From Anabaena lutea FACHB-196 (GTDB taxonomy: Bacteria; Cyanobacteriota; Cyanobacteriia; Cyanobacteriales; Nostocaceae), in assembly GCF_014698305.1 (NCBI RefSeq), contig NZ_JACJST010000027.1, positions 1-64,000 on the forward strand: a stretch of 64,000 nt of DNA, in the 5' to 3' direction. The translations under genes and the position numbers were made by a program. The notes below the pieces were generated by a model. The model had not been told where the DNA came from. It worked only from the letters and a program-made list of their open reading frames with translations, and searched no databases. Below, one piece after another: positions 314 to 44,619 of this stretch (the stretch's first letter is position 1; each line of letters opens with the position of its first letter).

Positions 314-1429
314 ATGAGCATAGAACAGAGAATCAAAGAAGCTAATGGTAGGTTGAAAGCTAATCATTGTGGGGTAAACATTGAGCAAATAGGAGGTAAA
401 TTATATTTACGTGCCGTGCTACCTCCCAAACCGGAATCTAAGCATACAAAGCCTCATCAGCAAAGGATAAGTATTGCACCCGCTAATTTTGAAGGAGTAA
501 AACTGGCGGAACGTGAAGCCAAAAAAATTAGTGTGGACCTTACTGACAATACTTTTAAATGGGGTAATTATCTTGAAGAGGAAATTAAACCACCTGAAAC
601 AATTGGTGATTGGATAATAAGATTTGAGGAAGATTATTTTAACAGAAGAGAAAGAACCCTGAAAACAGAAACGACCTGGAAGGTTGAATATAAAACAGTA
701 TTCAAAGTCCTTCCCAGGGATGAAATTATTAGTAGTGAAATTTTAAAACAGGCAATTTTAAAAACCAACCCAGACACCAGAACTAGAAAAAGATTCTGCT
801 TAGTAACTGGACTACTTGCTAATTTTGCTGGGTTGGATTTTGAAGCTTCCATTTATTCGGGAAACTATAGCTCTAAGAGAAGGAAACCGCGTGATTTACC
901 AACAGATAAAAAAATTGCCGAATGGTATCTCAAAATTGAAAATCACAAGTGGCGCTGGGTATTTGGGATGCTGGCTACTTACGGGTTGAGAAATCATGAG
1001 GTATTTTTCCTGGACCTGGATCAACTAAGAGAAGGCAACCAAGTAGTCACGGTCTTAGACGGTAAAACAGGATATCGGCGCGTGTGGCCTTTTCATCCTG
1101 AGTGGTTCACTGAATTTGACTTGGCATCGGTCAAACTTCCCGAAATAAATCTAGACCGGAATAACTCAGCAATTGGCGGGACTGTTAGCCAACATTTCAG
1201 ACGTAACCAGGAGATACCCTTTAAAGTTTATGATTTGCGCCATTGTTGGGCTATTCGTACCCTGGAATATGGAATTGATATTTCACTGGCAGCGCAACAG
1301 ATGGGGCATTCTTTAAACGTTCATTCGACGCTTTACCATACCTGGATAACCAGCCGAATTCACCAACAGGCTTTTGATTTGGCCATGAGTAAAAGCGATC
1401 GCCCCAAGCCGCCAAAGTTTAACAAGTAA
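314..1429 (+). CDS. Tyrosine-type site-specific integrase
   Basis: A 371-residue protein with the catalytic layout of tyrosine recombinases in its C-terminal half: Arg226 in TYGLRNHE, Arg309 in VYDLRHCW, His332 in QMGHS and Tyr341 in STLYHTW. The usual first His of the HxxR box is Tyr306 here, a substitution that occurs in some family members. The N-terminal ~120 residues would hold the arm/core-binding domain. It follows the KOW-like ORF without a gap and ends 74 bases before a tRNA-Lys 3' half at 1503-1544, so it is likely the integrase of an element using that tRNA gene as target. The element would extend to the left, beyond the window (inference). Confidence 0.85.
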   Translation: MSIEQRIKEANGRLKANHCGVNIEQIGGKLYLRAVLPPKPESKHTKPHQQRISIAPANFEGVKLAEREAKKISVDLTDNTFKWGNYLEEEIKPPETIGDWIIRFEEDYFNRRERTLKTETTWKVEYKTVFKVLPRDEIISSEILKQAILKTNPDTRTRKRFCLVTGLLANFAGLDFEASIYSGNYSSKRRKPRDLPTDKKIAEWYLKIENHKWRWVFGMLATYGLRNHEVFFLDLDQLREGNQVVTVLDGKTGYRRVWPFHPEWFTEFDLASVKLPEINLDRNNSAIGGTVSQHFRRNQEIPFKVYDLRHCWAIRTLEYGIDISLAAQQMGHSLNVHSTLYHTWITSRIHQQAFDLAMSKSDRPKPPKFNK

Positions 1430-1745
1430 TTATTAATTAATAATTCTTAACTCCAGCAAGATGCTTGCTGGCTTTTCTGTTGAAAAAGTAGTGTAAGGAT
1501 GTCTCTTAATCAATTGGTTGCGGGTTCGATTCCCTCCTCACCCACTAGCTTTCAGGTTTTCTAAATACTGGCTTTGACTAATTCTTGCCTAATTTACAGG
1601 AATACCCCCTCATAAATCCTGGATTTACAAGGGCAGTGGAAATTATTATTAGACGGATTTTTAGTCCTATAAGCTTCACGATAAATCAGTCCAGGTTATA
1701 GAAAGCGATCGCCGTATCCGACGTGCCATTTCGATAATCACCTTC
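1430..1745. other. Intergenic region after integrase
   Basis: Apart from the tRNA-Lys 3' half at 1503-1544, I see only AT-rich sequence and one HIP1-like octamer near 1708. No open frame of note. It separates the presumed mobile element from the dehydrogenase/P450 genes. Confidence 0.5.
1503..1544 (+). other. Attachment-site remnant: 3' half of tRNA-Lys(CUU)
   Basis: The stretch fits a tRNA from position 32 onwards: a seven-base anticodon loop CTCTTAA (anticodon CTT), stem strand TCAAT, five-base variable loop, T arm with loop TTCGATT and stem GCGGG/CCCTC (one mismatch), acceptor strand CTCACCC and discriminator A, then CTA in place of CCA. The 5' half is missing: the bases before 1503 do not pair with TCAAT. 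A tRNA 3' half starting at the anticodon loop just downstream of an integrase is the classical footprint of an integrated element. It marks the element's right end; the restored complete tRNA should lie to the left of the window. Confidence 0.7.
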
Positions 1746-2495
1746 TTACTGCACGGTATATCCTCCGTCGATCATCATGTTATGCCCCGTAACGAAGGAA
1801 GCCGCGTCCGAGCATAACCACACTACAGCTTCTGCGACTTCCTCCGGCTTACCAACACGCCCTATGGGATGCCTTGCCTTGATTTGAGGAAGCATATCTG
1901 CGGGAACAGTAGCCAGCATATCGGTCTCAATAAAAGCAGGACTCACAACATTGATACGAAGGCCGAATTGGGCATATTCCAATGCTGCCGCTCGGGTTAA
2001 GGCGATGACCCCACCTTTACTAGCACAGTAGCTGGTATAACCGGCGCAACCAACGACACCACCGATGGAAGCCATGTTGACTATTGTGCCGACACCTTGT
2101 TTGAGCATTGCTTTGATCTCGTACTTGAGAGAAAGCCACACTCCTTTCAGGTTCACATCGATCATGTAATCCCAGTCCTCTTCCGACATATCACAGAGTG
2201 GACTGAAAGTTGCAATTCCAGCGTTGTTGAAAGCGCAGTCAAGACGACCATAAGTATCTATGGCCTTGTTAACCAGCATCTCCATTTCCGCCTCTTTTGA
2301 CACATCTGTCTTGACGAAAATAGCCTCACCTCCTGCCTCTTGTATATACCGTACCGTCTCCTCGCCTTCAATGACGCGACGGCTGGCAGCTATGACCTTC
2401 GCTCCACTACGTGCAAATGCGATCGCTGTTGCCCTACCAATTCCAGAAGAAGCTCCAGTGACAAGTCCGACTTTTCCATCCAATTGCCGTGTCAT
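1746..2495 (-). CDS. Short-chain dehydrogenase/reductase (SDR)
   Basis: A 249-residue classical SDR of normal length. It has the cofactor-binding motif TGASSGIG at residues 13-20, NNAG at 90-93 and the catalytic set Ser143, Tyr156 and Lys160 (YCASK). The C-terminus ends MIDGGYTVQ, as in the glucose-dehydrogenase/FabG-like group. The substrate cannot be told from sequence. The start ATG at 2495 is preceded by a good ribosome-binding site (AAGGGAG). It lies downstream of the P450 gene on the same strand, 170 bases away, so the two may act on the same small molecule (inference), though a weak hairpin lies between them. Confidence 0.9.
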   Translation of the reverse strand: MTRQLDGKVGLVTGASSGIGRATAIAFARSGAKVIAASRRVIEGEETVRYIQEAGGEAIFVKTDVSKEAEMEMLVNKAIDTYGRLDCAFNNAGIATFSPLCDMSEEDWDYMIDVNLKGVWLSLKYEIKAMLKQGVGTIVNMASIGGVVGCAGYTSYCASKGGVIALTRAAALEYAQFGLRINVVSPAFIETDMLATVPADMLPQIKARHPIGRVGKPEEVAEAVVWLCSDAASFVTGHNMMIDGGYTVQ

Positions 2496-2556
2496 ACGTT
2501 TGCTCCCTTTTTTTAACTTTTGAGACTACACCTTGAGGGGGCGTTCTTATATCAAG

Positions 2557-2576
2557 CCCCTATCTTGAGATATGGG
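2557..2576 (-). terminator. Weak hairpin between P450 and SDR genes
   Basis: CCCCTATCT and AGATATGGG form a nine-pair stem with one mismatch and a two-base loop. It sits between the end of the P450 gene and the start of the SDR gene. There is no clear T-tract, so termination is uncertain. Confidence 0.3.
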
Positions 2577-2665
2577 ATTCTTTGCCAAACAGTAGCGGGA
2601 CGGTTGCTAACTCTTTAAGAAGCTCATGTTAAGTTCTCCGTAAACTTCGGGCTTATCAATTAATG

Positions 2666-3910
2666 TTACTGTGCAGCCGTAAGCTCTATACGAAATGTCT
2701 TCAATGATCGCACTGACAAATTATTTTGCCAGCACGGTTTTTCATCTACTGCACGAATATGAGAAAAGCGCCGCAATAACTCAGTGAAAACAATCTCCCC
2801 TTCCATGTTGGCAAGGGAAGCTCCTGGACATTTATGGATGTAAAAGCCGAAGGCTAATTGCTTATCGTTATTCCTTGTGATATTAAATGTATCTGGATCG
2901 GAAAAGACTTCTGGATCGCGATTGGCCGATCCAATCAGCAGAAAGATCAAATCACCTTTTTTGATTTTTTGGCCTTGAAACTCGATATCTTCAAGCGCCA
3001 TACGTGATAGTCGTTGGACAGGTGACTCATAACGCAACATTTCCCTCACTGCAAGAGGGATTAGTTTAGGATTTCGTCTGATGTCCTCCATGACATTTTG
3101 GTATCGCAAAAGCGTTAAAAGTCCGTTACCTAAAAGGTTCATAGTAGTCTCGAACCCGGCAAAAATTATCATAATACAAGTGGCGAGTATCTCCTCTTCA
3201 CTCATCATCTGTCCCGCAGTCTCTGCCTTGAGAAATGCACTGAGGAAATCATTCTGAGAGTGGCTTCTCCTACAGTGCAGAATGCCACGCAGGTACTCGG
3301 TCATCTCATCAACATGCACTTTAGCATTTTCCAGCCTTTCAATATAGCTATTAGGCGATGTTCCCACAAAGTTGACAATAGCTTCAGCGCAAAGTTTTGC
3401 TTTGTACCAACCAACTTCTGGGATACCCAATATCGTCGATACAACATAAAGTGGTAATGGGGAAGCAAGATCAGCCATGAAATCCATGCTCCCCCCATTT
3501 TTGTAGTCCTTGAGCATCTCGTCAACCAAGCGAGTAATGCTCGACTGAAAACTAAACACGACACTACTATCCAGCGCAGAACTTACTAATCGTCTGAGTC
3601 GAGAGTGTTCAGGTTTGTCCAAAAGCAGCATCCACATTTTCATTCTTTCGGCGAATGTTTTGTAGCGTTTCTGTTCAGCCTCTGGTAGTTGCAGAAAGCG
3701 TGGCGTGATTCGATCTGCTGCTATTTGATCAGATGCAAGAGCTTTAGTCACATCATCATATCGTGACACTACCCATGCCTGAAGTTCCTCGCTCCAATAC
3801 ACGGGAGCGTTTTCACGCAACCAACAGTACGTTGGATAAGGATTATTCAAGAACTCTTCAGAAACAAAACTATAGGGCATTATGTTTGGCTTTTGTTGAC
3901 TAATCTCCAT
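2666..3910 (-). CDS. Cytochrome P450 (bacterial CYP107-like type)
   Basis: A 414-residue soluble P450 without membrane anchor. The I-helix oxygen-activation motif AGFETT, the K-helix EMLR (ExxR) and the Cys-loop are present. The Cys-loop reads FGFYIHKCPG with heme ligand Cys361. The family consensus is FGxGxHxCxG, so the usual Gly before the I-H pair is Tyr here, an uncommon change close to the heme. The ATG at 3910 has a GGAAAG ribosome-binding site. The neighbouring SDR and lipocalin-like protein on the same strand suggest a small-molecule oxidation unit (inference). A partner ferredoxin or reductase is not in the window. Substrate unknown. Confidence 0.92.
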   Translation of the reverse strand: MEISQQKPNIMPYSFVSEEFLNNPYPTYCWLRENAPVYWSEELQAWVVSRYDDVTKALASDQIAADRITPRFLQLPEAEQKRYKTFAERMKMWMLLLDKPEHSRLRRLVSSALDSSVVFSFQSSITRLVDEMLKDYKNGGSMDFMADLASPLPLYVVSTILGIPEVGWYKAKLCAEAIVNFVGTSPNSYIERLENAKVHVDEMTEYLRGILHCRRSHSQNDFLSAFLKAETAGQMMSEEEILATCIMIIFAGFETTMNLLGNGLLTLLRYQNVMEDIRRNPKLIPLAVREMLRYESPVQRLSRMALEDIEFQGQKIKKGDLIFLLIGSANRDPEVFSDPDTFNITRNNDKQLAFGFYIHKCPGASLANMEGEIVFTELLRRFSHIRAVDEKPCWQNNLSVRSLKTFRIELTAAQ

Positions 3911-42459: not shown

Positions 42460-43650
42460 ATGAATTCAGCCGCAACCGCAACTACTCAGGGAGACAAGTC
42501 TATCGGCGTGGAGGTTATATTTCAATTCCTATTGAAAGAACTACAGCAGTCAACCAAGGCTACAGAAAAAAATTGTCGCAGTGTATCATTACGAATTGCT
42601 GGTGAAGTACTGCGAATTTGTAATGAGAGTAAACGCATTCAAGCTTCCGGTGAAATAGAAAGCTCCGCAATGACCCTAGCCCGACATCGTCTGCAACAAT
42701 GTCTCCGATACTATCAGTTGGGTTCCAATCGGGGCAGAGTAGAGTTACATAGTACTCTCAGTGCAATCATTTATCGCTATATTAATCCTCCTCAGAAGCA
42801 ATTGAGCTATCAAGGGCGGCTGACTATCATCGAAGATTTTCTTCAGAGTTTTTATCTGGAGGCATTGAATGCTTTCCGCAGGGAGAATCAACAAGAACCT
42901 ACCTATCGCCCTCAAACCCTCCTAGAATTAGCCGAGTACATGGCCTTTACCGAGCGCTATGGTAAACGCCGTATTCCCTTACCAGGAAGACAACAACAGC
43001 TAATTATCTTGCGAGCGCAAACCTTCTCACAACAGCAACCTCCGGAAACTACCGTAGATATAGAAAAAGCTTCTGAAGGCAGTAGTGGTGAATTTGATGG
43101 ATCTTGGGAAGAGCCAGCCATACAACAATTGCGATCAGCAATGGCAATGCAACCAGAACCAGAATTAGAAGAAGACACTCTGCGTTCAGTTGTGATTACG
43201 GAATTAATGGATTATTTAGAGCAACGGCAACAATCAGACTGTGCCGATTATTTCTCCCTCCGTCTCCAGGACTTATCAGCGCCGGAAATAGAATCAATTT
43301 TAGGTTTAACCCCGCGTCAGCGGGATTACTTGCAGCAGCGCTTTAAATATCATTTAATTCGTTTTGCACTTTTGCATCGTTGGGAATTAGTTCATGAATG
43401 GTTAGAAGCTTCTTTACCCACTAATTTAGGCTTGACTCCTCATCAATGGCAAGTCTACACAGCACAATTGGATGATCAACATCGGTCTTTACTGGATTTG
43501 AAGCAACAAGGAGAATCAGACGAAACAATTGCCAAAACCTTAGACTTATCAATGGCACAACTGCAAAAACGATGGTTTAAGATTTTGGAACAAGCTTGGG
43601 AAATTCGTAACTCATTAGTGTCCGGATCTAGTGCATCTACCCATGAATAG
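42460..43650 (+). CDS. hetZ: Heterocyst differentiation protein HetZ
   Basis: A 396-residue protein: VEVIFQFLLKELQQSTKATE, RVELHSTLSAIIYRYINP and EPTYRPQTLLELAEYMAFTERYG, with a helix-turn-helix-like C-terminal part (SAPEIESILGLTPRQRDYLQQRFKYH). This is the HetZ pattern. HetZ acts early in heterocyst formation, is under HetR control and works with PatU3 (established in Anabaena). The patU parts follow directly, which confirms the assignment. Length is near that of the Anabaena protein. Confidence 0.9.
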   Translation: MNSAATATTQGDKSIGVEVIFQFLLKELQQSTKATEKNCRSVSLRIAGEVLRICNESKRIQASGEIESSAMTLARHRLQQCLRYYQLGSNRGRVELHSTLSAIIYRYINPPQKQLSYQGRLTIIEDFLQSFYLEALNAFRRENQQEPTYRPQTLLELAEYMAFTERYGKRRIPLPGRQQQLIILRAQTFSQQQPPETTVDIEKASEGSSGEFDGSWEEPAIQQLRSAMAMQPEPELEEDTLRSVVITELMDYLEQRQQSDCADYFSLRLQDLSAPEIESILGLTPRQRDYLQQRFKYHLIRFALLHRWELVHEWLEASLPTNLGLTPHQWQVYTAQLDDQHRSLLDLKQQGESDETIAKTLDLSMAQLQKRWFKILEQAWEIRNSLVSGSSASTHE

Positions 43651-43782
43651 TGACTCACAACCTTTACAATACGAGTTGCTCGATTAGTTGTTGGCAGATA
43701 ATGTCAAACCGGCGAGTATCCCTCAGTAGAGTATGAGAAAATTGATGGGTTAGAAGACCCTCTCAAGGAAGCCGCTACATAA
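43643..43782 (+). pseudogene. Decayed 5' part of patU (patU5)
   Basis: Starting at an ATG that overlaps the hetZ stop, frame 2 reads MNSDSQPLQYELLD, a TAG, then LLADNVKPASIPQ and a second TAG. Frame 1 continues PSVEYEKIDGLEDPLKEAAT, a TAA, then SGEPE leading into the open PatU3 frame. Thus an ancestral continuous patU frame appears broken by two stops and a frameshift. In some Nostocales patU is one gene, in others patU5 and patU3 are separate. Confidence 0.55.
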
Positions 43783-43797
43783 AGTGGTGAGCCAGAG

Positions 43798-44619
43798 TTG
43801 GGAGGAAAACCCCAAACCTTTCAACTAGGAGAAATTCCTACTGTGCAAGAACGTTTTCAAGCCGTCCTCAAGCGTCGGTTACAAGTCGAAATCCAAAACC
43901 ACCCACCTTTATTCCCTTGGGAAAGCCAATTAATAGATTATCCCGAATTTGTGGAAGAGCCATCGATTGCCTTAGTTCCTGCCTGGGGGTGGTTGGCACA
44001 GCAATCGAAACTCAATCTGCCAGTTTCTTTACCAGAAAAGATTTTCCAGCAATTGATGGAAAAGTGTCAGTTATTACTGGCATCTTCTCTACCCTTAGGA
44101 CCTAAACTGGTTCAGGCTGTAGAGAGCTTTTTTCCTGAAGATCATCAGTTAATAAATGATGTGGCTGGCTTGGTACTCAGAAGTGCTTATCGTTCTGTAG
44201 ATGTTTTAGAGACAATACCCAATATTCAGAGGGATTACTCAGATTTACAACCACGTCAACAAATGGCGTTGTCGTTAATGGCAGCTAAACAACTGCTAGA
44301 AAATCTGACTTTGCCTATTTCTTTCACCAATCCGGTGATAGAAAAACAATGGCAAACTACTGCTGGAACTCTAAGTATCAGAGTAGAATTACAGTCTCTG
44401 GGTAAGCTCACGAAGTTACGTGTTCACAGTGAATTACCCACTCAAGGGGTTTTGAAGCTTCAGGGCAATGGGACTCAAGCAGTCTCACAATCAGGAGATT
44501 CAAATAAAACCAGTGTGGAATTATACTGCAAGCGTACTAGCGGGACTTATACTCTGGAAATTGAATGCCCAGAACTAGAACAACAACCCTTACTATTGGC
44601 CATTAATCTCACAATGTAA
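43798..44619 (+). CDS. patU3: Heterocyst patterning protein PatU3
   Basis: A 273-residue protein following hetZ: VQERFQAVLKRRLQVEIQNHPPLFPWE and LVPAWGWLAQQSKLNLPVSLPEK match the PatU C-terminal part. PatU3 affects heterocyst spacing and binds HetZ (known in Anabaena). The frame opens only after a TAA at 43780, and the first usable start is TTG at 43798 with no obvious ribosome-binding site, so translation may be weak or begin otherwise. A beta-rich C-terminal region (GTLSIRVELQSLGKLTKLRV) ends the protein. Confidence 0.82.
   Translation: MGGKPQTFQLGEIPTVQERFQAVLKRRLQVEIQNHPPLFPWESQLIDYPEFVEEPSIALVPAWGWLAQQSKLNLPVSLPEKIFQQLMEKCQLLLASSLPLGPKLVQAVESFFPEDHQLINDVAGLVLRSAYRSVDVLETIPNIQRDYSDLQPRQQMALSLMAAKQLLENLTLPISFTNPVIEKQWQTTAGTLSIRVELQSLGKLTKLRVHSELPTQGVLKLQGNGTQAVSQSGDSNKTSVELYCKRTSGTYTLEIECPELEQQPLLLAINLTM

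Follow-up and report, generated by a model that had tools for sequence, protein, structure and literature searches.

A candidate DIF1-type promoter in the end of hetZ and a conserved putative internal GTG start for PatU3 at the split patU locus of Anabaena lutea

The closest described system is the hetZ-patU5-patU3 locus of PCC 7120, where the split of patU is already known and a frameshift in the N-terminal part of PatU has been noted (excerpt of PMC9284123). According to the passages available from two further papers, PatU3 binds HetZ and inhibits differentiation, inactivation of patU5 is reported to leave differentiation unaffected, and a putative promoter inside hetZ is mentioned for patU5-patU3 (PMC7377430; PMC12288457). 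The same passages connect that internal promoter neither with a hetZ-terminal DIF1 box nor with a GTG start of PatU3, and patU3 is not among the DIF1 genes named in the discussion of PMC7377430. DIF1 (DIF+) promoters are also known: those of hetR, patS, patX and nsiR1 contain a TCCGGA box, a 17-nt spacer and a transcription start about 35–36 nt after the box, and dependence on HetZ was shown for the hetR, patS and patX promoters (excerpts of PMC7377430 and PMC6133370). The literature that we found, mostly in the form of passages, describes neither a hetZ-terminal DIF1 box nor the PatU3 GTG start, although the primary papers of 2007 and 2011 may have them.

The locus of A. lutea FACHB-196, analysed within a window of 64,000 nucleotides (the whole stretch of DNA under study), has the same gene order as in PCC 7120, with patU directly adjoining hetZ on its downstream side and likewise split (Table 1). 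The two differ in that patU5 of PCC 7120 keeps its gene entry, asr0100 (excerpt of PMC7065334), while the A. lutea frame, MNSDSQPLQYELLD, runs into a stop at codon 15, leaving 14 codons open. The name patU is used because of the position beside hetZ and the literature; our profile search found no Pfam or NCBIfam model naming PatU. PatU3 is present in one copy in this genome, and relatives of the PatU3 region are found in 190 of the 192 family genomes sampled. One of the two genomes lacking it is an assembly that is 54% complete. The other, G031 (a one-contig genome of 5.25 Mb, congeneric with Sphaerospermopsis kisseleviana, G077), lacks the end of hetZ, the whole of patU and the first part of the transglutaminase-like membrane gene that follows, and carries a 936-aa HetZ-transglutaminase fusion (L172, G031:C1:3381500-3386500, ORF 489-3299); it represents a natural loss of patU in which the DIF1 box is missing too. 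In four genomes of family f32 (G294, G278, G310 and G262) we found only short matches to the N-terminus of PatU3, which span about 40 residues and are each interrupted by a TGA, and no full PatU3.

Table 1. Coordinates of the features of the hetZ-patU locus in the window.
Feature	Position	Strand	Basis or remark
hetZ	42460..43650	+	HetZ model NF037963, 640.8 bits; ORF list
TCCGGA, candidate DIF1-type -35 box in the end of hetZ	43621..43626	+	conservation counts
ATGAATAG	43643..43650	+	patU ATG overlapping the hetZ stop, plus the -10-like TGAATA
TGAATA, -10-like	43644-43649	+	17 nt after the TCCGGA box
Predicted transcription start	43657	+	TCCGGA start + 36; layout from PMC6133370 (excerpt)
patU5 remnant, single reading frame gone	43643..43842	+	
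TAG, patU5 codon 15	43685..43687	+	shared with congeners L003 and L004
Site of the one-base loss	43703..43710	+	common to 14 clade sequences
TAA, final stop ahead of PatU3 in its frame	43780..43782	+	
AGGAGA, Shine-Dalgarno-like, for PatU3	43827..43832	+	
GTG, proposed PatU3 start	43843..43845	+	GTG at 152/152 distinct family loci
PatU3, 258 aa counted from GTG	43843..44619	+	purifying constraint

The interruptions of the patU5 frame proposed in the initial annotation are indeed present, namely TAG at codon 15, the loss of one base near 43706 and TAA at 43780, so that the locus has no single open patU frame and is a split patU. The frame changes in GTCA-AACC, which in the alignment has one base fewer than the intact relatives. 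None of the five aligned congeners has an unbroken patU5 frame, and comparison with relatives, as the annotation had suggested, revealed the one-base loss in 14/14 aligned clade sequences from separate genomes: five of the genus, including that of A. lutea itself, and nine others. Its carriers include S. kisseleviana, S. aphanizomenoides and an uncultured Trichormus, as well as two sequences that we take to be Raphidiopsis-like. The loss must therefore be an old event and not an error.

Breakage of patU is common in the family: counting patU as split or decayed when the open stretch ahead of the PatU3 GTG is shorter than 70 codons, we find it so in 52 of the 190 genomes having PatU3, and the remaining 138, scored from open-frame tables with DNA retrieved for part of them, have open frames of at least 328 aa, that is, a fused patU. 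The 52 are a mixed set, in which some are decayed like A. lutea and in others, such as the Nodularia-like L029 and L030, patU5 is still open and one stop severs PatU3. On a midpoint-rooted tree of hetZ and patU3 from 151 loci (18 duplicates were removed, reducing 170 loci to 152, and L048, which has no hetZ match, is absent from the hetZ work and the tree), 51 broken loci fall into 10 maximal clades, and Fitch parsimony gives 10 changes. Two of these breaks, in L053 and L054, may be a single event, and the largest broken clade (32 loci) contains a group lacking the one-base loss and perhaps holds more than one. The best reading is that the patU5 extension is dispensable and has been severed in about 10 lineages. 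Among individual loci, L009 and L010 (genus g56) have about 100 additional bases in the broken leader, between the remnant and the Shine-Dalgarno (SD)-GTG block, and L129/L174, from the Richelia sp. SL_2_1 MAG, has 463 open codons upstream of the PatU3 GTG in a HetZ-PatU fusion-like arrangement, which, given its MAG origin, is possibly an assembly slip.

PatU3 itself is under purifying constraint in the genus, with 0.048 changes at codon positions 1+2 against 0.189 at four-fold sites. Constraint on PatU3 while patU5 is broken in five congeners supports the earlier suggestion of a reliance on PatU3 alone. The accompanying idea that the lesions alter heterocyst spacing finds no support, given the unaffected PCC 7120 patU5 mutant described above and the 52 family genomes with a broken patU. 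The structure model of PatU has a mean pLDDT of 52, and residues 1–203 are mostly below 50; the low confidence therefore does not single out the PatU5 part. Residue 69, encoded by the GTG codon, is the first of a predicted helix, which proves nothing. We found no solved structure related to PatU by sequence and no Foldseek match for the model with an E-value below 0.001.

The remnant upstream of PatU3 has lost its coding character without drifting freely. In eight members of the broken clade the three old patU5 codon positions vary alike (15/49, 16/48 and 13/50), so coding has ceased there, while in six intact relatives third positions vary in excess (31/51, against 21/51 and 20/50 at first and second positions), so that in those relatives the extension is under some protein constraint. 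In five congeners, however, 18/147 sites in the middle of the remnant are variable, compared to 75/278 intergenic sites after patU3 (Fisher p 0.0005) and 88/220 four-fold sites; in eight clade members the numbers are 44/147, 114/264 (p 0.008) and 118/181, with the p values to be read as guides, as sites are not independent along the tree. Both ends of the remnant are nearly frozen. The decay reading of the initial annotation is thus incomplete: low variation in the middle together with frozen ends looks more like a kept leader than like drifting junk. Two candidates for what the leader might hold are not claimed, a consensus RNA structure (RNAalifold; 4/46 pairs changed on both sides, z -2.05 on the window strand) and a short conserved peptide, as the leftover frame lengths differ among relatives.

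The frozen upstream end coincides with a bipartite element at the end of hetZ, TCCGGA-N16-ATGAATAG, which carries the TCCGGA box of DIF1 promoters. In 150/151 family loci the box is found no more than 60 nt from the hetZ stop. Across the 151 hetZ genes we find 264 columns that are residue-conserved and degenerate, seven of which use one codon in at least 98% of the genes, and TCC and GGA (hetZ codons -9 and -8) are the sole four- or six-fold codons among these seven. The element or a near form of it is also found at 78/78 loci outside the family, taking the best match per locus with up to one mismatch in the box and up to three in ATGAATAG (84 outside genomes matched, six of them, with short matches only, being left out; two of the 78 have no hetZ match, and the hetZ frame of L182 breaks about 1.1 kb upstream). 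The box there is TCCGGA in 65 loci, TCCTGA in 12 and TCCAGA in one, followed after 16 nt by ATGAATAG in 44, ATGAATAA in 25 and a near form in nine. The hetZ frame does not extend through the box in 33 of these 78 loci, stopping ahead of it in 26 and inside it in seven; in nine loci the ATG of the element is out of the PatU frame with the N16 spacing unchanged. Since the element is kept without HetZ coding or an in-frame ATG, its conservation must have a cause other than the HetZ sequence or the PatU start. Neither of the two readable HetZ-related paralogues has a TCCGGA tail. The exact element occurs once in the A. lutea genome, and with up to two mismatches the whole element gives 41 matches against 21 for a reversed control. 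TCCGGA alone is found three times in the window compared to 7.08 expected, and the box alone is therefore no evidence.

The box and the predicted layout liken the candidate to the hetR, patS, patX and nsiR1 promoters, from which it differs in lying inside a coding gene, in that it would serve the antagonist of the activator, and in its -10 region, which has no clear match: TGAATA is conserved 17 nt after the box and only weakly resembles the TGTAAT or CGTAAT that stands 17 nt after TCCGGA upstream of hetR in the clade. Nothing usable came from nsiR1-like arrays as a source for a DIF1 -10 consensus. The start arithmetic (box + 36), checked on hetR only, gives about -272 for hetR of genome G168; a start near -272 is reported for PCC 7120 hetR in PMC7377430, and PMC9126369 is a correction that shifts a mark in a figure of that paper. 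Nine clade hetR loci share a conserved TCCGGA-N17-TGTAAT/CGTAAT about 690–1020 bases upstream of HetR, for example 713 bases upstream of the HetR DLIKRL in L213, unlike G168, where it lies near -308.

At the other end of the leader, the earlier view that PatU3 has only a TTG start and no clear ribosome-binding site did not hold, as GTG sits 10 bases after AGGAGA, a gap that is rather long. This codon is GTG at the proposed PatU3 start position in 170/170 family loci, whether patU is split or fused. For 151 loci the count comes from a pattern with a free third base, which can demonstrate fixation of GTG as a separate pattern requiring GTG cannot on its own; the other 19 were read individually. 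At all other valine positions of PatU3, GTG makes up 25.5% of the codons, against 152/152 distinct loci at the start site. The surrounding block, GGAGAAATTCCTACTGTG, is nearly invariant, and counted from GTG, PatU3 is 252–276 aa long, mostly 256–259 (245 for one locus lying at the end of a contig). In 98 intact patU genes (of 100 open loci, two being excluded by frame-length limits), 117 columns are residue-conserved and degenerate, and 22 of them use a single codon in at least 97%; 12 of the 22 are at the hetZ/patU junction, half of these in the hetZ overlap ahead of the ATG, and seven lie at codons -5 to +5 around GTG. Within the family, then, both the proposed start codon and the upstream SD are conserved beyond what the amino acids need. 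In 19/52 broken loci this GTG is the first ATG, GTG or TTG codon to follow the last in-frame stop. TTG 43798 was rejected as a general PatU3 start because, although some broken relatives have it, many lack it. In loci outside the family GTG occupies the aligned position in 63/78, and ATT (5), ATG (4), GTA (3), TTG (1), GTC (1) or TTA (1) in the other 15, where some alignments are uncertain.

This pattern is best read as the trace expected of a working internal start, in genomes with a fused patU as well. In bacterial internal-start genes one locus yields a long and a short product, as in Shigella virF; patU would differ from these in that the long product has been severed in many lineages and the internal start stays. 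The PatU3 SD lies within a 5-bp hairpin, TAGGA/TCCTA (43826–43840), the pairs of which are intact in 17/17 aligned family sequences and mostly absent outside the family. The hairpin could act as a gate on PatU3 translation, and a short hairpin around the SD could account for part of the synonymous fixation.

Taken together, we propose, with a probability of roughly 0.7, that the 155 bases at 43643–43797 are a dead N-terminal extension, PatU5, retained as promoter and leader of patU3 in a HetZ-driven loop. On this proposal the patU5 frame would have been broken in the ancestor of the clade and separately in other lineages. The element at the end of hetZ would be a DIF1-type promoter, and HetZ would be expected to activate a patU3 transcript from inside its own gene because DIF1 promoters need HetZ. 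The transcript would begin downstream of the patU ATG and so could encode only PatU3, which would be translated from GTG behind AGGAGA; PatU3, by binding and restraining HetZ, would close a negative feedback loop. That the box works as a promoter and the GTG as a start we infer from conservation in sequence.

The main competitor, which we consider unlikely, is plain pseudogene decay, with patU5 dead and drifting, PatU3 made from a hetZ-patU transcript and the 155 bases only carrying its ribosome-binding site. Stops and indels in many lineages would follow naturally from it, as would the lack of a phenotype of the PCC 7120 patU5 mutant (excerpts of PMC12288457 and PMC7377430) and the even variation of the old codon positions in the eight clade members, as expected of dead coding. 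It does not, however, account for a mid-remnant less variable than both the downstream intergenic DNA and the four-fold sites, or for an element retained even where hetZ does not code through it.

The latter retention also bears on a rather improbable explanation, in which overlapping codes and translational coupling through the stop-start overlap, and no promoter, keep the hetZ end and the patU start fixed. In most family loci ATGAATAG does cover both the stop of hetZ and the start of patU, but the exact spacing from the box persists in the 33 outside loci where hetZ ends before or within the box, the ATG is out of the PatU frame in nine, and the two readable paralogues are without the element. 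Finally, the lesions are small and the assembly is a draft of 62 contigs, as would suit sequencing or assembly errors in an organism with an intact patU; we rejected this explanation, to which we give hardly any credence, on the identical one-base loss in all 14 clade sequences from separate genomes, and the TAG at codon 15 recurs in L003 and L004.

A broader claim, for which we see about even odds, is that the last nine codons of hetZ double as a promoter through which HetZ drives a transcript encoding PatU3 alone, with an internal start, the whole forming a nested feedback module. Since the element recurs in each filamentous relative that was examined beyond the heterocyst family, such a module probably predates heterocysts. 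A nested promoter together with an internal start would explain the repeated loss of the PatU5 extension. The restraint on heterocyst patterning hinges on the control of PatU3; if the proposal is true, models could incorporate the HetZ-PatU3 pair as a negative feedback loop, the split long noted in PCC 7120 patU would have an explanation, and the loop may first have served filamentous ancestors without heterocysts.
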